Shown piece by piece: positions 10,267-34,249 of a stretch of DNA of 40,888 bases; position 1 is the stretch's first letter; each line of letters begins with the position of its first letter. A program made the translations under genes and the position numbers. Source of the stretch: Sulfurimonas sp. (lineage in GTDB: Bacteria > Campylobacterota > Campylobacteria > Campylobacterales > Sulfurimonadaceae); NCBI RefSeq assembly GCF_014859695.1, contig NZ_JACUTS010000013.1, positions 1 through 40,888 of the forward strand, in the 5' to 3' direction. Under the pieces are notes generated by a model. That model made no database searches and was not told the origin of the DNA. It was given only the letters and a program-made list of their open reading frames with translations.

Positions 10267-10423
10267 ATATAACACCTAATCTTTATAATATTGAAAAATA
10301 AATTCCATAGATAGTACCTTATTGTCGCTTAAGAGTTGCGTAAATAGAGGAAACTTTTTTAGAAGTTTAAAGCAGTGTGCAAATGCGTTGCAAAACGTAT
10401 AAAGGAACAAGAGATGTTACCGC

Positions 10424-10449
10424 AAACAACTGCTTTTAAGCAGTTGTTT
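10424..10449 (-). terminator. Strong hairpin, probable terminator of the cytochrome-porin gene
   Basis: AAACAACTGCTT (10424-10435) pairs perfectly over 12 bp with AAGCAGTTGTTT (10438-10449), with only a two-base loop between. It lies 55 bases after the stop of the minus-strand cytochrome-porin gene and in front of gyrA. The T-run is short (TTT at the stem end), so it is plausible rather than textbook. The 238-base gap between gyrA and the porin gene holds only this and the gyrA upstream region. Confidence 0.6.
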
Positions 10450-10504
10450 TACGATATAAATGGTTTTAGGAGAGATAGAAGTTGATGTTTTTTTTCTAAT
10501 AAAA

Positions 10505-11773
10505 TTAGAATGACATCATAGACATAAATAGAATGTCGCCTCCTGAATATTGAGTTGTAGAAGTATCAGCTCTGTCGCTTGAAGTGTAAGAGTACTCTAC
10601 GGTAAAACGTACGTTTTGTCTCATGTTATACTCTAAACCAAGAGAGTAGACATTGAAGTCTCTGTCTGCTGTTACATCGTCAGTGACGCCCAATATAGCT
10701 GCTTTGACGCCAAATTTTTCTACCGGATTAATCTGCATATCTAAATGGTAACCTGTTTTGTCCTGCGCACTTGTTGTAAGGACAGCATAATCGTCTTTAT
10801 AAGAAACATAGTCATTCTTAAACACATAACCGCCGGTTACCATAACCGACATATTAGCTATAGCGCTCTCAATCTGAAGGTCGATGCCAGCCGAGTCCCT
10901 ATCAAGCGCATCTTGATCTAGACCATGTACTTTATCGGCTAAAGATGTTGTGTCATCAGAATCTTGCAGCCTATCTCTGAGTTTTTTTCCAGAATCTCCG
11001 CCAATATAGTATCCGCCTAGAGCGATTGTTGAACTGCCTATATCAAACTCATATGCAGCTCTTGCCAAAGCTTTAAAAGAGTCGGTTCCAGTCTCACCAC
11101 TTGCTGCAAACATAGGAACATATGCGCCTACTGTTGCATAGAAGCCATTTGCTCTATAGTAAACTTGAACACCTGTAGCTTCACCATCCCCGATACCTAA
11201 GCTTTGGAAGATGTTTGTTTTTTTACGATTCTCAAACTGGCGAACCGGTCTGTATAGACCCGTAGTATATATCTCCGTTCCCGCAAATGCACCGAGTGCA
11301 TCAGTCATGTGGTAAGTTGCACCTACTCTTCCGCCCAGAGCTTCTGTAGCAAATGTTATCTTGCCCCCAATTAAACCTTCGGCAAACTCCATAGAGGTAC
11401 CTACATTGTCAGCTATCTTGCCGCCGAAGATAAAAGCAGATTCATCAAAAATCTCTGTTTTAGTCTCCACGTCGTCACTTTTATCTTCAAGTACACGAGC
11501 TTTTATAACAAAAGCCATATTTAGAGTTTCAGGCATTCCTAAACCGCCGTTTGGCTCACTCTTTATCTCTTTACCGCTTGTCATCGTAAAGCCCGACATC
11601 TTAAAATCTCTACCGAAAGCATTCAGCTTTGGCATGTTTTGAAAGTGACAAGACATACAATCTGCATCCATTTGCCTAGCAAACGCAGGTGTTGCCTCCG
11701 CTGCCGTAGCACACATTAGTGTTAAACCAACCATAGAGATGATTTTTTTTGCCGAAATTCTAGCTTTCATCAT
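10505..11773 (-). CDS. Cyc2-like outer-membrane cytochrome-porin fusion
   Basis: A 422-residue exported protein. A signal peptide (about 1-27) is followed directly by one haem c motif, C39-M-S-C42-H43, set in PAFARQ...CHFQNMPKLNAFGRDFKMSGF. This arrangement (P-x-FARQ, CxxCH, P-x-L-N-x-x-GR-x-FK-x-x-G) is the signature I know for the Cyc2 family, outer-membrane proteins in which a small haem domain plugs or abuts a beta-barrel and which include iron(II) oxidases. The rest (about 90-422) alternates polar and hydrophobic residues with aromatic strand ends and finishes in F, as expected of a barrel. It stands alone, with no other cytochrome gene nearby. Iron oxidation is not shown; related proteins of unknown substrate are likely in sulfur oxidisers. 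AAGGGG precedes the ATG by 5 bases. Confidence 0.72.
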   Translation of the reverse strand: MMKARISAKKIISMVGLTLMCATAAEATPAFARQMDADCMSCHFQNMPKLNAFGRDFKMSGFTMTSGKEIKSEPNGGLGMPETLNMAFVIKARVLEDKSDDVETKTEIFDESAFIFGGKIADNVGTSMEFAEGLIGGKITFATEALGGRVGATYHMTDALGAFAGTEIYTTGLYRPVRQFENRKKTNIFQSLGIGDGEATGVQVYYRANGFYATVGAYVPMFAASGETGTDSFKALARAAYEFDIGSSTIALGGYYIGGDSGKKLRDRLQDSDDTTSLADKVHGLDQDALDRDSAGIDLQIESAIANMSVMVTGGYVFKNDYVSYKDDYAVLTTSAQDKTGYHLDMQINPVEKFGVKAAILGVTDDVTADRDFNVYSLGLEYNMRQNVRFTVEYSYTSSDRADTSTTQYSGGDILFMSMMSF

Positions 11774-11950
11774 GAAAACCCCTTATTATAAATAAATATT
11801 ATGAATAAATCAAATTTATGCATAAGTAGAAATCATATAACTATAAAATTTAAAGCTAACTTAAATCTGTGTTTTTTGGGAAATTTGTCAAAAAGTGTGA
11901 AGTGATTAAAAAATAATCAGTTTTTTGTTGTATTGCAAACTTGGATGGTA

Positions 11951-11977
11951 TATAATTTGGCAGATTAAAAAAAAGGA
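11951..11977 (+). promoter_or_regulatory. -10 box and ribosome binding site of the first amt gene
   Basis: TATAAT at 11951-11956, preceded by TGG, has no good -35 at 16-18 bp, which is common for housekeeping promoters in Campylobacterota. AAGGA at 11973-11977 precedes the ATG at 11985 by 7 bases. I see no clear sigma-54 site (GG-N10-GC) here although ammonium transporters are often nitrogen-regulated elsewhere. The 211-base gap to the divergent porin gene holds nothing else I can identify. Confidence 0.5.
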
Positions 11978-11984
11978 TTGAAAA

Positions 11985-20265: not shown

Positions 20266-21189
20266 ATGAATTACTTTAGTTTTGAATATGCCTATCTTAT
20301 CCTACTATTGCTTCCCATTTTATACTGTATGTATAAGTGCAGGGAGCAGATGAAGTCTAGATTTTTCGTCCATCTGCACTTTTTATCTGCAAAAAAGAGT
20401 TTCATAAAACTTGAGAGGCTTTTAAAAATCATTATCTTTATCTTGCTCTGCGCTGCGCTCGCTTCACCTATAGTCGTAGATAAATTTAACCCCCTAAACA
20501 GGCACGGAAAAGATATCGTCCTCTCAATCGACGGGAGCGGTTCTATGGGCTCATCGGGGTTTGATATGGAAGATGAGATTAGCAAAGGAGAGAGACTTAG
20601 CCGTTTTGAGATTGCAAAACTTATTACTGCTGATTTTATATACAAACGTGAGAGCGACAACATAGGAGTAGTGCTCTTTGGCGATTTCGCTTTTATCGCC
20701 TCTCCCATAACTTACGAAAAAGAGATAGTTGTTGATATGCTTAACTACCTGACACACGGCATGGCAGGACAAAATACGGCAATAGGAGAGGGCATAGCTC
20801 TAGGAGTGCGAGCGTTTAAACACTCAAAAGCAAAAAGCAAAATCATCATACTTTTTACGGACGGTGAGCACAACAGCGGAGATATCTCACCAAAAGATGC
20901 CATAGAGCTGGCAAAAGAGCGTGGTATTAAGATATATACAGTCGGCATGGGCAACAGAGGCGAGGCAGATGAGGCGCTTTTGCAAAAGATTGCCCATGAG
21001 AGCGGCGGCGAGTTTTTTTATGCAGAATCGGCAGGGGAGTTAAAAAAGATCTGCAAGAAGATTAATGAACTCGAATCCTCAAAGATAAAGAGCAGGGAGT
21101 ATCTCTTGAAAGATTACTACTACTGGACGGCTCTGCTTCTAGCGCTGGCTATTTTGCTCTTTTTACTCTATAGAGAGGCAAAAAAATGA
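20266..21189 (+). CDS. BatA-like VWA membrane protein, set 1
   Basis: 307 residues: membrane segments near 8-22 and 52-72, a von Willebrand A domain (about 83-265) and a C-terminal membrane segment (about 283-302), the BatA layout. The metal-ion site is intact (D89-G-S-G-S93, with FTDGEHNSG as the later motif). Bat proteins are thought to act with a MoxR ATPase in envelope maintenance or stress tolerance; the molecular role is not settled. It is a paralogue of the protein at 30071-31000: both share DNIG-V-FG, FIASP-TY and GMAG. It opens a 14-kb same-strand run. No ribosome binding site is obvious before the ATG. It overlaps the next gene by 4 bases. Confidence 0.88.
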   Translation: MNYFSFEYAYLILLLLPILYCMYKCREQMKSRFFVHLHFLSAKKSFIKLERLLKIIIFILLCAALASPIVVDKFNPLNRHGKDIVLSIDGSGSMGSSGFDMEDEISKGERLSRFEIAKLITADFIYKRESDNIGVVLFGDFAFIASPITYEKEIVVDMLNYLTHGMAGQNTAIGEGIALGVRAFKHSKAKSKIIILFTDGEHNSGDISPKDAIELAKERGIKIYTVGMGNRGEADEALLQKIAHESGGEFFYAESAGELKKICKKINELESSKIKSREYLLKDYYYWTALLLALAILLFLLYREAKK

Positions 21190-22607
21190 CCCTGTTGTAT
21201 CCGCAATATTTCTGGCTTTTACTGCTGCTTCTGCCACTTTTTATAAAGAGGGATATAAGAGAGTTTAGAGTGAGCGTGTACGGCTACATGCTAACTTTTC
21301 TTTTTATCGTTGCGGCGCTCTCAAGACCCGTCATAGAACAAGAGCCTATTGAGTCAAAACAGATGCTTAGCGACGTTATCATAGGAGTTGACCTCTCTTT
21401 CTCCATGCAGGGAAGCGATTTGGAGCCGACAAGGCTTGGCTTTGCAAAAGAGATGTTAAAAAAACTGGTTGAAGTTGAACAAAAGAGCAGGTTCAGCGTT
21501 CTTGGATTTACTACAAATGCGATTGTCCTCTCTCCGCTAACCGAAGATAGGGAGCTTTTGCTTCACCTTTTTGGCGCACTTGATGAGAAGTTTATCATTA
21601 CGCAGGGAAGCTCTATCATGTCGGCTCTTAAACTCTCAAGAAAGATGTCCGCTTCAAAAAAAGCTACGGTTGTGCTCTTTAGCGACGGCGGAGATGAGCT
21701 TGGTTACGAGGCGGAGGCGCATTTTGCCAAAGAGAACTCTTTGGTTGTAAATATTTTTATGACAGCCTCCGCAACGGGTTCAACTCTAAGGCAAGAAAAC
21801 GGAGAACTTTTAAAAGATGAGCTGGGCGATATTGTCGTAAGCCGCCAAAACAGTGCATCTAAAGAGATTTGCGATGCTACGGGCGGAGTCTATACCAAAG
21901 ATTTTGACGAGCTTCTTGATGCACTTGATGCGCAAAAGAGCAAAGATAAAGAGAGTAAAACGACCATCATGAGAAATTTGGAGCTTTTTCAGTACTTTAT
22001 AGCCTTGGCGATTATCACCTTTTTGGTAAGCGTGACGACTCTAAAGAGATATGTAGTTATGTTTTTGCTTCTCTTTGGTGTGCATCTGAGTGCAAGCCAA
22101 AACATGGAGTTTTTCAATAAAGCGACACAGTTTTACAGAAGCGGCGAGTATGAAAAAGCGCTGCAAAATTTTGAGATGCTAAGGTCAGCCGATGCAGAGA
22201 CTAAATCCATAATCTACTACAATATAGGAAACTCTTTTGTAAGACTTCAGCAGTTTAAAAAGGCAAGAGAGGCGTATATAAAATCTTTAACGCTCATCTA
22301 CTCCAAAGAGGCGGATGAAAATCTGGAGTTTATCCGCGGGGTTGGAGAGAAAAAAGAGATGAGTACAGGGCAACAGCAGAGCAAAGAGAAGTCGGCACTT
22401 GCAAAAAAAGAGCAGAGCAAAAAGCAAAAAGAGGGCGGCGGTTCAAACATGCAAGTGAGTGCGGCTGCAAGCAGCGGGTCGGACGATAAGGGTAAGAAAG
22501 CAAAAGCCCAAAGCCGGATAAATTTAGACGGCGGCAAAGCAAAACTCAGCTCAAGGCAGTATGAGCTTATAAACAAGAGGAGGGTAGATGAAAAAAAGCC
22601 TTGGTAG
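21186..22607 (+). CDS. BatB-BatC fusion (VWA plus TPR), set 1
   Basis: 473 residues. N-terminal membrane segments (about 8-20 and 34-48) and a VWA domain (about 62-250) with metal-site D69-L-S-F-S73 and FSDGGDELG are BatB-like. After a membrane segment (about 270-298) comes a periplasmic TPR region (about 310-385, with YYNIGNSFVRLQQFKKAREAY) as in BatC, then a Lys/Ser/Gly-rich tail ending in KKPW. In several bacteria BatB and BatC are separate genes. The paralogue at 30997-32808 has the same fused order and also ends in KPW, so the fusion preceded the duplication. It overlaps BatA by 4 and BatD by 20 bases. Confidence 0.87.
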   Translation: MTLLYPQYFWLLLLLLPLFIKRDIREFRVSVYGYMLTFLFIVAALSRPVIEQEPIESKQMLSDVIIGVDLSFSMQGSDLEPTRLGFAKEMLKKLVEVEQKSRFSVLGFTTNAIVLSPLTEDRELLLHLFGALDEKFIITQGSSIMSALKLSRKMSASKKATVVLFSDGGDELGYEAEAHFAKENSLVVNIFMTASATGSTLRQENGELLKDELGDIVVSRQNSASKEICDATGGVYTKDFDELLDALDAQKSKDKESKTTIMRNLELFQYFIALAIITFLVSVTTLKRYVVMFLLLFGVHLSASQNMEFFNKATQFYRSGEYEKALQNFEMLRSADAETKSIIYYNIGNSFVRLQQFKKAREAYIKSLTLIYSKEADENLEFIRGVGEKKEMSTGQQQSKEKSALAKKEQSKKQKEGGGSNMQVSAAASSGSDDKGKKAKAQSRINLDGGKAKLSSRQYELINKRRVDEKKPW

Positions 22608-23691
22608 AGTATTTTTAATAGTTTTTATATTTTTGCAAGCAGGACTTTTTGCTTCGACATATACATGGAGTGCCTACGCAAACAAAACTACTGCGTATCT
22701 TCATGAAGCTATCCATCTTAAATATGTTTGCAGTTTCAGCGATGCTTCGGAACTATATACCATTGAGTTTAATCCCTCAGGAGAGTATGAGAAATTCACT
22801 CTTAAAAACCTAAGAAGCAGTGAGCAGATAGTTGATGGCAAGAGGGTAAACAGTTATGAGTTTGTAGCGTTTGCAAAAGAAGCGCTCGAGATAGAGTTTG
22901 CGTTTGAAGCCATCATGAAAAAGACCACAAAAGAGTCGATTGAAGATACCGTCATTGGAAGAGACAATGTCAAAAAAGAGGACTTTAAAAAAGAGCCTTT
23001 TAAGCAGAAGGTTTTAAGAGTTAATGTCAAAGAGACAAACACTCCGCTTGTCGGAGATTTTGCCATTGAAACAAAAAAAAATGAGCCAAAAGTAAAGGCG
23101 TATGAGCCGTACCGCATGCAGGTGTCAATCAAGGGAGTGGGAAATTTTGAAGCACTAAAACCTATAGCCTTTAATATCGAGGGCGTAAGAGTTTTTGCAG
23201 AAGAGATTGCTCGGGATTATAAACTTAGCGAAGATGGTTTACATGGAGAGTGGATACAGAAATTTGCGTTTGTCTCAGAGAAAGATTTTAGGGTTCCAAG
23301 GGTTGAGATAGAGTATTTCAGTCTTAGGGAGCAAAAATTGAAAAAGTTTGTCATAAATGCTCTAGATGTGAGCGTTGAAGCAGGCTTTAGCAAAGAGGAG
23401 CTTCTTGATGAGGAGCCAAAGAAAAGTTTTGAGTTTGACTATAGTTACCTCTACTATCTTTTAGCATTTGTAGCAGGATTTTTAGTTGCAAAAATAAAGG
23501 TAAAAAAAAGAGTTGCCAAGAAAAGCAGCGATGAAGAGTTTAGACAAAAGGTGCAAGAGGCAAAATCACTTGATGAGCTGATGATTTTGCTGGTTTTAAA
23601 AGATGCAAAGAGGTATGAGAAGATTATCTCTGATATTGAGACAAAAAAAGTAGCTTCGCTTAAAAATGCAAAGAGGTTAATAGTAGATTAA
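22588..23691 (+). CDS. BatD-like protein, set 1
   Basis: 367 residues. A signal peptide (about 1-22), a periplasmic beta-sandwich type region, a late membrane segment (about 283-299) and a basic cytoplasmic tail reproduce the BatD layout in shortened form. The stretch LVGDFAIE, then GVGNFEALKPIAF and FAFVSEKDFRVPRVEIEYF, is matched closely in the larger paralogue at 32822-34249 (LVGDFAIE, GEGNLEDIKSF, IAFVADRDFTIP). About 100 residues of the N-terminal part of that paralogue are missing here. The gene starts inside the end of the BatB-BatC gene. It closes set 1, which has no moxR, DUF58 or DUF4381-like gene of its own. Confidence 0.82.
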   Translation: MKKSLGRVFLIVFIFLQAGLFASTYTWSAYANKTTAYLHEAIHLKYVCSFSDASELYTIEFNPSGEYEKFTLKNLRSSEQIVDGKRVNSYEFVAFAKEALEIEFAFEAIMKKTTKESIEDTVIGRDNVKKEDFKKEPFKQKVLRVNVKETNTPLVGDFAIETKKNEPKVKAYEPYRMQVSIKGVGNFEALKPIAFNIEGVRVFAEEIARDYKLSEDGLHGEWIQKFAFVSEKDFRVPRVEIEYFSLREQKLKKFVINALDVSVEAGFSKEELLDEEPKKSFEFDYSYLYYLLAFVAGFLVAKIKVKKRVAKKSSDEEFRQKVQEAKSLDELMILLVLKDAKRYEKIISDIETKKVASLKNAKRLIVD

Positions 23692-27878: not shown

Positions 27879-28826
27879 ATGATTTCTAAGATAGAGTTGA
27901 TTAAAAAAGAGGTTTCTAAGGTAGTTGTCGGGCAGGAGAAGATGATCGATTCTCTTCTTATTGCTCTTTTGTGTGAAGGGCATATCCTCATAGAGGGTGT
28001 TCCCGGACTTGCTAAAACCACAACGGTAAATGCGCTTGCAAAAACTCTCGGGCTTAATTTTAAGCGTGCACAGTTTACGCCCGACCTTCTTCCCTCAGAC
28101 ATACTCGGTGCAGAGATATATGACCCCCAAAACAACAGCTTTAAGATAAAAAAAGGTCCGATATTTACAAACCTTCTTTTGGCGGATGAGATAAACCGCT
28201 CTCCTGCAAAAGTTCAGTCTGCTCTGCTTGAAGTTATGCAGGAGAAGCAGGTAACGCTTGGAGATACAACATTCAAGTTAGAGCCTCCGTTTTTTGTTAT
28301 GGCTACACAAAACCCAGTTGAACAGGAAGGTGTCTATCAACTCCCAGAAGCGCAGCTTGATAGATTTATGCTAAAACTCATTGTGGATTACAACACAAAA
28401 GAGGAGGAGCTTGAGATTGCAAGACGCATCTCAAGCGGCAATTTTGAGGCGATAGAGAGTGTGATAACGCATGAAGACTTGGATGAGCTAAAAACGGCTG
28501 TAAAAAACGTACATGTAGACGAGCAGGTTGAAGAGTATATGATTGAGTTGGTCAATGCGACAAGAAACCCTCATGAGTACGGACTTGATGAGATAAAAGA
28601 CTTCATCCAGTTCGGTGCATCGCCGCGTGTAAGCATAGATATGTTCAAAGCAGTAAAGGCTATGGCATTTATGAGAGGCAAAGATTTTGTTACACCCGTT
28701 GATGTTGCTTACATCGCAAAAGAGCTTATGCGCCACCGCATTGTTTTAACATACGAGGCTGAGGCTGAGGGAGTTACAACCGATGAGATTATAGAAAAAG
28801 TGCTCCAAGCCGTAGCAATACCGTAG
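27879..28826 (+). CDS. MoxR-family AAA+ ATPase
   Basis: 315 residues, chaperone-like ATPase of the MoxR branch. Walker A is G40-VPGLAKT-47, Walker B LLLADE (99-104), sensor 1 is in MATQNP, and PLxxLPSDILG (DLLPSDILG) and the arginine-finger region EAQLDRFMLK follow. The C-terminal lid domain includes GASPRVSIDMFKA. MoxR proteins act with DUF58 and VWA proteins encoded alongside, which are exactly the following genes. It is the only moxR in view, so it could serve both Bat sets. Confidence 0.95.
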   Translation: MISKIELIKKEVSKVVVGQEKMIDSLLIALLCEGHILIEGVPGLAKTTTVNALAKTLGLNFKRAQFTPDLLPSDILGAEIYDPQNNSFKIKKGPIFTNLLLADEINRSPAKVQSALLEVMQEKQVTLGDTTFKLEPPFFVMATQNPVEQEGVYQLPEAQLDRFMLKLIVDYNTKEEELEIARRISSGNFEAIESVITHEDLDELKTAVKNVHVDEQVEEYMIELVNATRNPHEYGLDEIKDFIQFGASPRVSIDMFKAVKAMAFMRGKDFVTPVDVAYIAKELMRHRIVLTYEAEAEGVTTDEIIEKVLQAVAIP

Positions 28827-28840
28827 ATTTGATATAAACT

Positions 28841-29671
28841 ATGAGTAAACTGCAAAAGATATTGGTTCGCGCAAGACGTCAGGTTTTTAGCGAAATGGTC
28901 GGAAACAACCCATCCATTTTTCAGGGTGAGGGGTATGACTTTATTGAGTTAAGAGAGTACATGCCTGGCGATGACATCCGCCATATCGACTGGAATATTA
29001 CCGCCAAGATGCAAAAACCATTTATCAAGATATTTCGCGAAGAGAGAGAGCTTAGTGTAGTAGTGGTATCTGTATTAAACGGAAGCGTGCATTTTGGCTC
29101 CAAGAGATTTAAGCAAGAAGCCATCGCCGAAATTGCCGCTCTTCTAGGGTTTTCAACGCTTAAAAACGGTGACTTGCTAAGTTCTTATATCTTTACGGAT
29201 GAGATGGTTTCGCACGCAAAACCGAGTAAGAAACTGCATCAAATCCAAAAAAATGTCCAAGACATCTTAGAGTTTGACGCCATAAACAAAAAGGTTGATT
29301 TCAAAGTAATCGCCGATACGCTCTTTAAAAGGCTTAAGAGAAAATCTCTCATCCTGATTATCGGCGACTACTTTGAGATACCGGACTTTAGACTTCTGGC
29401 AAGAAAACATGAGGTGCTCTGTGTTATAGTGAGAGACCATCTTGAAGAGCATCCGCCGGAGATGGGTTTTGCATCGCTCATCGACCCTGAGAGCGGAGCG
29501 GTTTTAGAGGGCGATTTTAACGCTTCAAGCGTGAGAGCATACAGCCAAAAGGTCGCGGCACATGACCACAGACTCTTTGAGAGGCTAAGACGTGACGGCA
29601 TACGATTTACAAAAGTATATACCGACTCTATTGCAGGCGTGAAGCTTCGCAGACTTTTTGAGGGCAGATAA
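28841..29671 (+). CDS. DUF58-domain protein
   Basis: 276 residues with the DUF58 signature: YDFIELREYMPGDDIRHIDW, then a strand-turn region and a degenerate VWA-like C-terminal half. It lacks the membrane segments found in some longer DUF58 proteins, so it is likely cytoplasmic. It is the standard partner between moxR and the BatA genes. It starts 14 bases after moxR, and its stop overlaps the next ATG. Confidence 0.92.
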   Translation: MSKLQKILVRARRQVFSEMVGNNPSIFQGEGYDFIELREYMPGDDIRHIDWNITAKMQKPFIKIFREERELSVVVVSVLNGSVHFGSKRFKQEAIAEIAALLGFSTLKNGDLLSSYIFTDEMVSHAKPSKKLHQIQKNVQDILEFDAINKKVDFKVIADTLFKRLKRKSLILIIGDYFEIPDFRLLARKHEVLCVIVRDHLEEHPPEMGFASLIDPESGAVLEGDFNASSVRAYSQKVAAHDHRLFERLRRDGIRFTKVYTDSIAGVKLRRLFEGR

Positions 29672-30078
29672 TGGCACAAGAGCAAAGTTACGATATCCCG
29701 CTTCATGATATAAAACCTATTGTTGAGGTACAGGAGTATTCGCTCTACTATTTTTTAGGAGTTGTCTTTATAGTGCTTCTTTTGGTTGCGGCACTCGGCT
29801 ATCTCATCTATAAGTATTTTAAAAAACGAAATGCCTTTAATCTGCGAAAAGAGCACTTCAAGCTTCTAAATTCGCTTGATTTAAAAAAGACTAAAGAGAG
29901 CGCATACCTCATTACCTCTTTGGGCGCTACGTTTAAAGATGACAGTCCAAGACATCAAGAGATGTATGAAAACCTCACAAACCGTCTTGAAGAGTATAAG
30001 TACAAAAAAGAGGTGAATGAGTTTAGCCAAGAGACTTTGGGCTACATAGAGCTTTACAAGGAGATGATCGATGTTTGA
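29671..30078 (+). CDS. DUF4381-like small membrane protein of the Bat operon
   Basis: 135 residues. A short N-terminal stretch with DIPLHDIKPIVEV (similar to the L-DI-P phrase of DUF4381 proteins), one membrane segment (about 28-49) and a cytoplasmic helical domain. Position between DUF58 and BatA is where a DUF4381 protein usually lies in MoxR-Bat operons. Overlaps 1 base with DUF58 and 8 bases with BatA. No counterpart exists in set 1. Confidence 0.7.
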   Translation: MAQEQSYDIPLHDIKPIVEVQEYSLYYFLGVVFIVLLLVAALGYLIYKYFKKRNAFNLRKEHFKLLNSLDLKKTKESAYLITSLGATFKDDSPRHQEMYENLTNRLEEYKYKKEVNEFSQETLGYIELYKEMIDV

Positions 30079-31000
30079 TGGAATCTATTTTGAATTTCCA
30101 CAAATTGCACTCCTTATCATCTTTTTTATTTTGTGCGCTTTTCTTTGCAAGATGAAGCTTCCATCCATCTATTTTCCACATACTCACGACTTTTTAAACC
30201 GTAGTGTCTCGGCATCAAAAACACTACTCTTTTTAAAGTGGTTCGGAGTCGTTATGATGATACTCTCTCTTATGTCGCCCGTAAAAGATGAGCCTTATGA
30301 ACTTGAACCAAAAGAGGGATATGAAATAGCTCTGATTCTGGATGCTTCGGAGTCTATGCAGGCGGAGGGGTTTGATGCCAAAAACCCATATTTTACAAGG
30401 TTTGACGCTGTAAAAGAGATTGTCGGCGAATTTATAAAAGAGAGGCAAAACGACAATATAGGTCTGGTCGTATTTGGCGCATACTCTTTTATTGCGTCGC
30501 CTCCGACTTATGATGCGGATATTTTAAACAAAATTCTCTCACAGCTCTCAATCGGAATGGCGGGAAAATATACGGCGCTTCATACATCTCTGGCACAGGG
30601 CGTAAATCTTTTAAAGATGGGAAACTCAAAGACAAAAATAGCAATCTTGCTAACAGACGGTCACAGCACCCCTCAAATCGACAAAATCCCGCTTGACGTG
30701 GCGCTCGATATGGCAAAAAAAGAGGGTGTAAAGGTTTACCCCATAGGCATAGGAATGCCGCATGAGTATAACCAAGATGTACTGCTTCGTATTGCAAACG
30801 AGAGTGGCGGGGTGGCGTTTGGCGCTTCAAATGCCAATGAGCTAAAAGAGGTCTATAGAACAATAGATAAGTTAGAGAAGTCTGAGATAAGGGGAGAGAC
30901 ATTTACAAATCTGAAGTACTACTACCAGTTCCCTCTTTTTATCTCTCTGCTCTCGCTGATGCTCTACGTCTACCTTAGAAACAAGAGGGGTTATGCATGA
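30071..31000 (+). CDS. BatA-like VWA membrane protein, set 2
   Basis: 309 residues with membrane segments near 12-28 and 52-70, a VWA domain (about 84-270) and a C-terminal membrane segment (about 287-303). The metal site D91-A-S-E-S95 and LTDGHSTPQ are intact. The set 1 homologue at 20266-21189 shares the same order and the phrases SFIASPPTY and GMAGKYTA (GMAGQNTA there). It overlaps both neighbours by a few bases, indicating translational coupling. Confidence 0.92.
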   Translation: MFDGIYFEFPQIALLIIFFILCAFLCKMKLPSIYFPHTHDFLNRSVSASKTLLFLKWFGVVMMILSLMSPVKDEPYELEPKEGYEIALILDASESMQAEGFDAKNPYFTRFDAVKEIVGEFIKERQNDNIGLVVFGAYSFIASPPTYDADILNKILSQLSIGMAGKYTALHTSLAQGVNLLKMGNSKTKIAILLTDGHSTPQIDKIPLDVALDMAKKEGVKVYPIGIGMPHEYNQDVLLRIANESGGVAFGASNANELKEVYRTIDKLEKSEIRGETFTNLKYYYQFPLFISLLSLMLYVYLRNKRGYA

Positions 31001-32808
31001 CATTTTTACACCCTGAATTTCTCTACTACATGCTGCCTCCGCTCTTTATCCTCTTCGGACTTCTGCTTACTCAAAAGGAGCAGTTTGCAACATTTTTTGC
31101 TCCGGATGTGATGGATAGGCTCCGCGCAACTACAAACTCTATGACGCTCAAAGCAAGAAATGCACTCTTTTTTCTTGTGGGATTTTTGATGATAGTAGCA
31201 CTCGCCGAGCCTGCCATCAAAGAAGGCACAGTTGAGGTAAAAGCAAAAAGCGCGGACATTATGATTGCTTTTGATATCTCAGACTCCATGTTGGCGCCCG
31301 ATATCTATCCAAGCAGGCTCGAAGCCGCAAAACAAAAAGTATTGACTCTTTTGGAGGAGGCGCCAAATGAGCGTATAGGCATAGTCGCGTTTGCAAAAAA
31401 CTCCTATCTTGTCTCTCCTCTTAGTTTTGACACCGCTGCAGTGGCATTTTTGCTGCGCAAGCTTGATACGTCATCGATTACAGAGAAGGGAACAGACTTT
31501 TTGTCTGTTTTGGATGTTGTAAGTAAAACTCAAAAAAATGAGGGCAAAAAGTATCTTCTTCTCTTAAGCGACGGCGGAGATAAAGATGATTTTTCCAAAG
31601 AGATTGAAGCGGCAAAAAAACATAATATTGTTGTTTTTGTATTGGGTGTTGCTACAAAAAAAGGCTCACCAATAAAGCTTGAAGATGGAACCCTTGTAAA
31701 ATACAAAGGCGAGATAATTATCTCAAAGCTTAATGAAAATATTGCAGATTTGGCTACAAAAACAGGCGGAGTCTATATACAAAGTTCGACATCCTCGGAT
31801 GATATTAAGAGAATGTTTAAAGAGATAACCGAGATAAGTGAAGAGCGGGAGCTCAAAAGCCAAGAGATACAAAAACATAAACCCCTATTTTACTATCCGC
31901 TTGCAGCGGCACTCTCTCTTCTGCTCATTGCGACAAGTTCACTAGGCAAAATAAAAAACGGCGCAGCTGTGTTTATTTTATCTATTGCTCTTTTTAATGC
32001 TCCACATGCAGAGGCGGGAATTTTGGATTTTATGGACTTAAAAAAGGCGAAAGAGGCGTATGAGAGCGGCAGTTACTCTGAGGCGGCAAAGCTCTACGAT
32101 GAACATGCACAAAACTCCCAAAATCCACAAAGCTACTACAATGCGGCAAATGCCTACTATAAAGATAAAAAGTATCAAGAGGCGATAGAAGCATACAAAA
32201 AAGCGGTATTTGAAGAGGAGAGTCTTAAGGCGAAAAACCTCTCAAATCTTGGCAATGCCTTTGCAAAAGAGGGCGATTTGCAAAAGGCTGTTGAAGCCTA
32301 CGAGAGCTCTTTGGAGATTTTGGACGACATAGAGACAAGAGAGAATTTAGAAGAGGTCAAAAAACGTTTAGATAAACAAAAAAGCGACTCAAAAGAGGGC
32401 GATGATAAGCAAGAGAAGCAAGAGCAGAGCGATAAAGAGCAGAACTCAAAAGATGATGAGAGCGGCGATGAAGATAGCTCTAAAAAAGATGAGAAGGGCG
32501 ATAAAAAAGAGGACTCAAAAGAGGAAAACAGTGGAGAGAAAAAAGATAACTCAGAAGAGAAAGAGTCTGAAGCAAAAGAGAGCGATGACAACAAAGCAGA
32601 GCAAAAGAGTAAAGCCCAAGATATGAAAGAGAGCGAAAAAAGTGATGAAAACAGCTCTGCCAAAACAGAGTCGATGCAAAATGAGATGATGAGCGATGAA
32701 GAGCAGATGAAGTGGTTAGAACAGCTCAACATGGGCAACGCTACATTTCTTTATAGGCTAAACGATGAAGAGACAACTCAAGAAAATTCAGATGAGAAAC
32801 CATGGTAA
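30997..32808 (+). CDS. BatB-BatC fusion (VWA plus TPR) with long charged tail, set 2
   Basis: 603 residues. BatB part: membrane segments (about 10-24, 56-72), VWA domain with D93-I-S-D-S97 and LSDGGDKDD. After further hydrophobic stretches (about 298-338) comes the BatC part: TPR motifs (about 345-455) such as YESGSYSEAAKLYDEHA and YYNAANAYYKDKKYQEAIEAY. The tail (about 465-575) is almost wholly Lys, Glu, Asp and Ser, certainly disordered, and longer than in set 1. The protein ends in EKPW; set 1 ends in KKPW. It overlaps BatA by 4 bases and leads BatD by 13. Confidence 0.91.
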   Translation: MTFLHPEFLYYMLPPLFILFGLLLTQKEQFATFFAPDVMDRLRATTNSMTLKARNALFFLVGFLMIVALAEPAIKEGTVEVKAKSADIMIAFDISDSMLAPDIYPSRLEAAKQKVLTLLEEAPNERIGIVAFAKNSYLVSPLSFDTAAVAFLLRKLDTSSITEKGTDFLSVLDVVSKTQKNEGKKYLLLLSDGGDKDDFSKEIEAAKKHNIVVFVLGVATKKGSPIKLEDGTLVKYKGEIIISKLNENIADLATKTGGVYIQSSTSSDDIKRMFKEITEISEERELKSQEIQKHKPLFYYPLAAALSLLLIATSSLGKIKNGAAVFILSIALFNAPHAEAGILDFMDLKKAKEAYESGSYSEAAKLYDEHAQNSQNPQSYYNAANAYYKDKKYQEAIEAYKKAVFEEESLKAKNLSNLGNAFAKEGDLQKAVEAYESSLEILDDIETRENLEEVKKRLDKQKSDSKEGDDKQEKQEQSDKEQNSKDDESGDEDSSKKDEKGDKKEDSKEENSGEKKDNSEEKESEAKESDDNKAEQKSKAQDMKESEKSDENSSAKTESMQNEMMSDEEQMKWLEQLNMGNATFLYRLNDEETTQENSDEKPW

Positions 32809-32821
32809 CGAATAAAGGCGA

Positions 32822-34249
32822 ATGATGAGAACTATTACTAAAGTACTATTTTTACTACTGCTGTTTTTAAGTACGGCAAATGCGCAGGTTGTCGCAAAAG
32901 TAACCCCAAAAGAGGTAGAGCTAGGCGAGATGGTTACATACTCGCTCACCATCTCAGGAGAGGATATAACAAGACCAAATATACGCAGATTGTGCGATAG
33001 CGATGTTATATCTACAAGTTCTCAAACAAACATACAGATAACAAACGGACCAATCAGTAAAAACTACGCGCTAAGCTATAGATTTGTTCCTCAAAAAAGC
33101 TGTATAATCAGTCCGATTGAGGTTGAAGTTGACGGTAAAACAGAGCTTAGCAATAGTGTAGAGGTAAAAGTAGTTCCAGTCAGCGGCGCAAAAGATTTGG
33201 ACTTTGTTTTAAAGATAGAGAGTAGTAAAAAAGAGCTTTTTGTAGGAGAAGCGTTTGACTTGACGCTCACTTTTAAGCAAAGAAGCGATGCTGAGGCGGT
33301 TGACAGTCAGTTTACTCCGCCCGAGCTAAAAGGGTTTTGGATAAAAAGCGAGACGCAGCCAAAGAGGTATCAGGATTCAAAATATACAATCACGGAGATA
33401 GTCTACTCTTTAGCACCTCAAAGAGCAGGAGAGCTTAAAATTCCACAAGCGCAGATGAGAATAGCCTCAAGAGGCTCAAGAGCGAGCAGTTGGGGAGACT
33501 GGATTCCTACAATTAAGTGGAAAACATACTTTTCAAACGAGTTGAGTTTTGATGTGAAACCGCTTCCCTCAGGTGTTAGTTTGGTCGGAGATTTTGCCAT
33601 AGAAGCGGTAGTTGATAAAAGTCAAATCAAAGCAAATGAGGCGGTAAATATCAAGATAAACGTGAGCGGCGAGGGAAACTTAGAGGATATAAAAAGTTTT
33701 AAGCCAGAGATGGATGATGTTGCCGTATTTGATGAAAAAATTGTTATAGAGGGTAAAAAACTTACCCAAAAGATAGCTTTTGTAGCAGATAGAGACTTTA
33801 CGATACCATCCTTTTCACTGCGCTATTTTGACCATGAGACAAAAGAGGTAAAAGAAGTTTCTACAAAAGAGATAAAAATTGATGTTATAAACGAGCAGAT
33901 AAAAGAGGAGCTGGTGGTTAAAAAAGAGGAGGCTGTTGCGGAGTATGAAGAACATGCAACGCCTACTAAAGAGTACAACACGCTTACTCTTGTCTTTATT
34001 TTCATCGCTGGAGTAGTTGTTGGTGTTGTTAGTATGCTCTATAAACCATATTTTAGCTCTGTAAAAAAGTCAAAAGAGGGCTCCATAAAAGATCCAAAGA
34101 CTCTTTTAACAAAACTATTGCCTTTTAAAGATGATAAAGAGGTTTGTGAGATAGTAGAGATACTGGAGAAGAATATCTACTCCCATCAGAAGATAGAGAT
34201 AGATAAAAAAGCCCTCAAAGAGCTCTTAAAAAAGTATAAGATTGACTAA
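32822..34249 (+). CDS. BatD-like protein, set 2
   Basis: 475 residues. Signal peptide (about 1-21, ending in TANA), three beta-sandwich type repeats in the periplasm (starting VVAKVTPKEVELGEMVTYSL, then FVLKIESSKKELFVGEAFDL, then FAIEAVVDKSQIKANEAVNI; each begins with an exported strand followed by a (G/A)E(A/M) phrase), a membrane segment (about 384-403) and a short cytoplasmic tail. This is the full BatD architecture; the set 1 BatD keeps less of it. The last gene of the plus-strand run. Behind it lie a strong hairpin and a copy of the dispersed repeat. Confidence 0.9.
   Translation: MMRTITKVLFLLLLFLSTANAQVVAKVTPKEVELGEMVTYSLTISGEDITRPNIRRLCDSDVISTSSQTNIQITNGPISKNYALSYRFVPQKSCIISPIEVEVDGKTELSNSVEVKVVPVSGAKDLDFVLKIESSKKELFVGEAFDLTLTFKQRSDAEAVDSQFTPPELKGFWIKSETQPKRYQDSKYTITEIVYSLAPQRAGELKIPQAQMRIASRGSRASSWGDWIPTIKWKTYFSNELSFDVKPLPSGVSLVGDFAIEAVVDKSQIKANEAVNIKINVSGEGNLEDIKSFKPEMDDVAVFDEKIVIEGKKLTQKIAFVADRDFTIPSFSLRYFDHETKEVKEVSTKEIKIDVINEQIKEELVVKKEEAVAEYEEHATPTKEYNTLTLVFIFIAGVVVGVVSMLYKPYFSSVKKSKEGSIKDPKTLLTKLLPFKDDKEVCEIVEILEKNIYSHQKIEIDKKALKELLKKYKID

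Follow-up and report, generated by a model that had tools for sequence, protein, structure and literature searches.

Within the window, by which we mean the whole 40,888-nucleotide stretch of Sulfurimonas DNA that was analysed, an ORF with an ATG start and 422 codons occupies exactly positions 10505-11773 of the minus strand (Table 1). It is flanked by an amt-glnK-amt group and, at its other end, by gyrA, FlgP/FlgQ-like ORFs and an NtrC-type regulator; these names were assigned by eye. The product appears to be an exported precursor; with the cleavage site as read from the sequence, the mature N terminus is TPAFARQMDADCMSCHFQNMPKLNAFGRDFKMSGFTM. The haem-motif context, ATPAFARQMDADCMSCHFQNMPKLNAFGRDFK, consists of P29-A-F-A-R-Q34 and P48-K-L-N-A-F-G-R-D-F-K58, and CMSCH (residues 39-43), the sole CxxCH in the 422 residues, begins 11 residues past the likely cleavage site. 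The initial annotation had described just this arrangement, a single CxxCH after the signal peptide in a P-x-FARQ...P-x-LN-x-x-GR-x-FK context, and it is present at residues 29-58.

Table 1. Features at the haem-porin locus (window coordinates)
Feature	Position	Strand	Basis and remarks
Cyc2-like cytochrome-porin gene	10505..11773	-	422 aa, probably monocistronic; ORF, purifying selection, relatives
Signal peptide, residues 1-27	11693..11773	-	cleavage placed by eye between AEA and TP; pattern recurs in subfamily A members
Putative monohaem cytochrome segment, residues 28-64, TPAFARQMDADCMSCHFQNMPKLNAFGRDFKMSGFTM	11582..11692	-	lone CxxCH; motif unchanged among relatives
Predicted outer-membrane beta-barrel of 16 strands ending in Phe, residues 85-422	10508..11521	-	alternation, profiles, model; Porin_4 at residues 305-400, sub-threshold
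Stem-loop downstream of the gene, probably a (bidirectional) terminator	10418..10456	-	folding energy of the RNA -19.6 kcal/mol, z -6.3
Promoter-like TTGATT-17-TATAAT preceding the ATG	11785..11813	-	consensus match only
Segment of about 1.5 kb that the nearest relative, G032, lacks in this slot (gene with its stem-loop and upstream region)	10396..11899		blastn, empty slot against both flanks

The gyrA-amt slot

Given the stable stem-loop downstream, the gene is probably transcribed alone. A simple terminator scan did not detect that stem-loop, and promoter-like matches in the region were no more numerous than in shuffled sequences. No partner gene adjoins the haem-porin at the locus, and no porin of the MtrB/PioB type was found in the window's genome, in keeping with the earlier remark that the gene stands alone. 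Eighteen matches to class I cytochrome c in the same genome represent possible electron partners.

In most Sulfurimonas genomes that have both genes, gyrA and amt1 are divergent and about 200 bp apart. A gene of the window's type (subfamily A, below) lies inside this slot in six genomes (the window, G005, G021, G104, G051 and, as a broken copy, G065), beside gyrA in G031, and elsewhere in G016 and CG2_30_36_10. G032, with a GyrA 97% identical to that of the window, has an empty slot, which blastn aligns with both flanks, over 155 bp up to window position 10395 and over about 105 bp from 11900. Segment 10396-11899 is therefore gained or lost as a unit, and the gene is an accessory one in this slot. 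Its GC3 of 0.35 is near that of the neighbours and gives no hint of a recent foreign source. The nitrogen and flagellar genes to which the initial annotation had drawn attention are indeed there, but they give no functional clue, because the gene is a removable cassette and most relatives lack any gene in the slot; for the same reason we discarded a role linked to ammonium transport or flagella.

The slot itself (window 10276-11984) is a site of gene turnover, being mostly empty and holding different, unrelated genes in G134, G133, G115, G116 and G044. A palindrome, TGATTA-n-TAATCA, at about 11900-11930 is conserved upstream of amt1, also where the haem-porin is absent. Since it is kept in empty slots, it belongs to amt, where it is probably bound by a regulator of ammonium transport. 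Disrupted subfamily A genes were seen at L070 8046-9119 (G065, stops) and L004 7932-9262 (Kmv12, a frameshift in which an assembly error is possible).

Conservation, barrel and family

The pattern PxFAR[QK]-(3-5)-CxxCH has a single occurrence in the window, whereas 100 base-shuffled windows contain none. Across 27 aligned relatives, with overall identity down to 17%, the barrels differ greatly, but the motif residues vary little or not at all: fixed throughout are A27, F31, R33, Q34, C39, C42, H43, L50, G54, R55 and F57, plus five barrel positions. Comparison with G005 and KA11, which carry the two nearest orthologues, gives a dN of 0-0.03 for the haem segment and a dN/dS of 0.27-0.28 for the barrel; more distant orthologues give barrel ratios of 0.16-0.31, which are rough owing to large dS. 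Judged from these comparisons, the ORF is a real gene under purifying selection.

An outer-membrane barrel following the haem segment, as the initial annotation had proposed, is likely. Family-averaged, strand-like alternation of hydrophobicity covers 69 positions, against 32 +/- 11 in shuffles (0/200 reach 69), and all nine subfamily A members end in Phe. Two AlphaFold2 runs on few sequences (the window protein and related loci), and thus on shallow alignments, gave low-confidence models (mean pLDDT 39 and 42) that lend slight support. The initial annotation had suggested a structure prediction to look for one haem domain on a 14-16-strand barrel; the pLDDT-42 model has 16 strands after residue 85, with short turns alternating with long loops. 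Its best PDB matches by Foldseek are general porins (Vibrio cholerae OmpT, Rhodobacter porin 2por, PorB and Campylobacter jejuni MOMP), and a sequence search with the 422-residue protein returned no meaningful match to any PDB chain. The 16 strands, and a haem segment at the periplasmic mouth, are thus predicted features. Pfam Porin_4 scores 21.1 bits (cut-off 27) over residues 305-400 only, short of what would mark an ordinary Gram-negative porin, and a Pfam scan of the protein for PF11854 (MtrB/PioB porin) gave no match. An NCBIfam cytochrome c7 match (16.6 bits against a cut-off of 120) was set aside as reflecting the haem motif alone.

Some family member was found in 31 of the 135 Sulfurimonas genomes searched, and a scan of named genomes placed close relatives in Sulfurimonas KA11, CG2_30_36_10, RIFCSPLOWO2_12_36_12 and Kmv12. 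In a phylum sample, 33 of 397 Campylobacterota genomes matched, many of them weakly through C-terminal resemblance to ordinary porins; matches at E 1e-6 to 1e-3 in the C-terminal third were discarded as ordinary porins or FadL-like proteins, lacking CxxCH where inspected. Searches of viral contigs found no relatives, and a plasmid collection gave partial, motif-centred matches only, to proteins of the Burkholderiales/Methylocystis type.

A tree of 42 full-length haem-porins, with long branches and unsure deep joins, falls into six groups (A, B1, B2, C, D and E), each one side of a branch. Subfamily A, the window's type, is monophyletic (support 100/99) and comprises nine sequences from Sulfurimonadaceae, one of them from another genus of that family. 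B1 and B2, which form tandem pairs, are jointly its sister (99/98), and D joins C (100/99). Group E, which includes plasmid-borne proteins of Caballeronia, Paraburkholderia, Ideonella and Methylocystis, is set off by an internal branch of 1.7 changes per column.

Barrel profiles were compared with hhalign after removal of the first 60 mature residues. A matched B over its full length (100%, score 420), C+D at 98.8% (score 121 over 308 columns) and E at 89% locally over 177 columns and 97% globally; reversed-sequence controls in local mode gave 2% or less. Ordinary Campylobacterota porins reached 94%, but over only 74 C-terminal columns. By these profiles the barrels of all haem-porin groups are related, A being homologous over its full length to CxxCH-porins and only C-terminally to ordinary porins.

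Comparison with Cyc2 and other conduits

Cyc2 proteins have been defined (Keffer et al. 2021, PMC8406198) by a single CxxCH after the signal peptide, AxPxFAR[Q/K][T/Y], PxL four residues downstream, a length of at least 365 aa and a 16-strand porin, and this motif defines a family whose Mariprofundus member oxidises Fe(II). The window protein has the single N-terminal CxxCH, has PxL exactly four residues after it (CMSCH-FQNM-PKL, a spacing kept in 9/9 A members) and is 422 aa long; with its signal peptide, AxPxFARQ and predicted 16-strand porin it resembles cluster 1, that of Mariprofundus ferrooxydans PV-1 and other neutrophilic iron oxidisers. It differs at one position, having Met where those proteins have Thr or Tyr after FARQ. 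Eight of nine A members (the exception, L045, has Thr) and six of seven D members carry Met at this residue, 35, which is Thr in the other groups; a database built with a PxFAR[QK][TY] filter would miss most of A and all of D.

Set against Cyc2 by the published criteria, and in a tree built from sequences other than characterised Cyc2 proteins, the window protein is best placed in a Cyc2-like sister subfamily that probably works like Cyc2. The fused single-haem cytochrome-porin and its Cyc2-type kinship, both put forward in the initial annotation, thus gain support from motif, architecture and barrel profiles, and of the options named there the best fit is a sister family, since A is a clade by itself and departs from the published motif filter at one residue. 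Campylobacterota Cyc2 nested in Zetaproteobacteria has already been reported (PMC12442345) and may be A, C, D or none of these, and Sulfurimonas pluma has been reported without Cyc2 (PMC10066037). We found no paper in the open-access literature describing Sulfurimonas haem-porin subfamilies; one candidate on a monohaem protein and porin (PMC13322032) concerns MtrAB-type clusters, another family. MtrAB, MtoAB and PioAB complexes likewise carry electrons across the outer membrane through a barrel, but they use a separate decahaem cytochrome and a 26-strand barrel.

The groups also differ in their surroundings. The plasmid proteins of Burkholderiales and Methylocystis, mostly annotated "cytochrome C", and the Campylobacterota E members, which probably correspond to clusters 2/3, share the haem motif, the barrel and profile-detectable homology with A, but have FPELT or FPALT after CxxCH and a long branch to all others. 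Unlike A, three of the four plasmid relatives directly adjoin a c-type cytochrome gene, the fourth has one within 3 kb, and in one case a HiPIP gene is present too; such company would be expected for electron-transfer modules. The B1-B2 pairs of other Sulfurimonas (for example G049, G015 and G050), although closest to A, are two tandem genes beside a divergent class I cytochrome c gene (L072, L073, L074, L084 and parts of L075/L076), with a LuxR-type regulator gene and, in some genomes, a DUF2202 protein gene near those tested; A is single and alone. A D member in a complete genome (L079 7258-8514, G011:C1) adjoins CopB and a multicopper oxidase (Pfam), with a copper-type P-ATPase nearby (by eye). 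It thus looks like a Cyc2-like protein in a copper-resistance locus, and members of the superfamily need not all serve iron.

Genes for C and E haem-porins (L077, L078, L080, L081 and L083) were seen among TonB-receptor, BtuF-like, ABC-transporter and cob genes, named mostly by eye (Pfam in the case of Peripla_BP_2), a puzzling association with the uptake of corrinoids or metals.

Electron donor and direction of flow

At the level of sequence, then, this is an exported precursor with a single CxxCH in a Cyc2-like context, a conserved barrel, homologues in a wider haem-porin family that match it in both haem segment and barrel, and gain or loss as one gene. From these features we infer haem attachment, location, donor, direction and partner. 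We imagine, after the Mariprofundus Cyc2 model of Keffer et al. (PMC8406198), that the haem segment plugs the periplasmic mouth of the 16-strand barrel. The pore would admit a dissolved reduced metal ion, Fe2+ being the most likely, whose electron would pass to the haem and then to a class I cytochrome c of the periplasm, which would feed the usual Sulfurimonas oxidases or the nitrate-reduction chain. One can envision the gene as an accessory module for electron entry, of use to a sulfur oxidiser in habitats that contain Fe(II). Sites that we take to be iron-rich, Crystal Geyser (CG2_30_36_10) and Rifle (RIFCSPLOWO2_12_36_12), are the source of two near relatives, and to our knowledge all biochemically tested members of the cytochrome-porin architecture oxidise Fe(II). 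To an outer-membrane cytochrome-porin of the Cyc2 type, a single-haem electron entry fed most likely by dissolved Fe2+, we give an even chance; for this probable conduit dissolved Fe(II) is the most likely donor, though an unproven one. The direct route for metal sulfides or a cathode that the initial annotation had entertained finds no support, Keffer et al. (PMC8406198) having argued that a narrow pore with a single haem at its periplasmic mouth calls for a dissolved donor.

The same conduit might instead serve another donor, such as Cu+, Mn2+, a reduced sulfur compound or an organic shuttle, or might detoxify a metal rather than gain energy. The genus lives on sulfur compounds, A shares Met35 with D, and the six groups differ in genomic setting, from the copper locus of D, the cytochrome c of B1-B2 and the TonB/BtuF/cob genes of C and E to the isolation of A. 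That isolation also counts the other way, with no copper or sulfur genes beside A, and the haem context and barrel are conserved between A and the other groups; together with the Fe(II) oxidation by the tested proteins, this leaves another donor on the unlikely side. A wider form of the proposal, in which Sulfurimonas radiated single-haem porin conduits (A, B1, B2, C, D and E) for different donors, A being specific to Campylobacterota with a donor other than iron, seems to us rather doubtful.

Electrons might also leave the cell, from periplasmic cytochromes through the protein to a shuttle or a soluble acceptor outside. A plug with one haem could conduct in either direction, the window's genome is without another outer-membrane conduit of the MtrB type, and a Sulfurimonas reducing Mn(IV) oxide with sulfide is cited in PMC11748539. 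The characterised relatives are nonetheless oxidases of external Fe(II), and a solid acceptor would be out of reach for a narrow pore with one haem (an argument of PMC8406198), so that electron exit strikes us as improbable. Barely credible is an ordinary porin without covalent haem, its CxxCH there by chance or for structural reasons: the weak Porin_4 match, the porin-like last strands and the Foldseek matches point that way, but an invariant haem context in 27 highly diverged relatives, a haem-segment dN near zero and full-length barrel similarity to other CxxCH-porins only led us to reject the chance-motif porin raised in the initial annotation.

Cyc2-like genes serve as markers of iron oxidation in metagenomes. 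With several Cyc2-like subfamilies in a sulfur-oxidising genus, one with a member in a copper locus (D) and one mostly dropped by the motif filter (A), it becomes testable whether the architecture stands for iron oxidation or for a broader kind of electron entry. If A oxidises Fe(II), abundant sulfur, hydrogen and nitrate chemolithotrophs would gain a second donor; if its donor is not iron, "Cyc2-like" would denote a general one-haem electron entry at the outer membrane rather than iron oxidation.

Elsewhere in the window, positions 20266-23691 and 27879-34249 hold two tandem-like sets of VWA/Bat-type and MoxR-type genes (assigned by eye), with lipoprotein-like genes between them.
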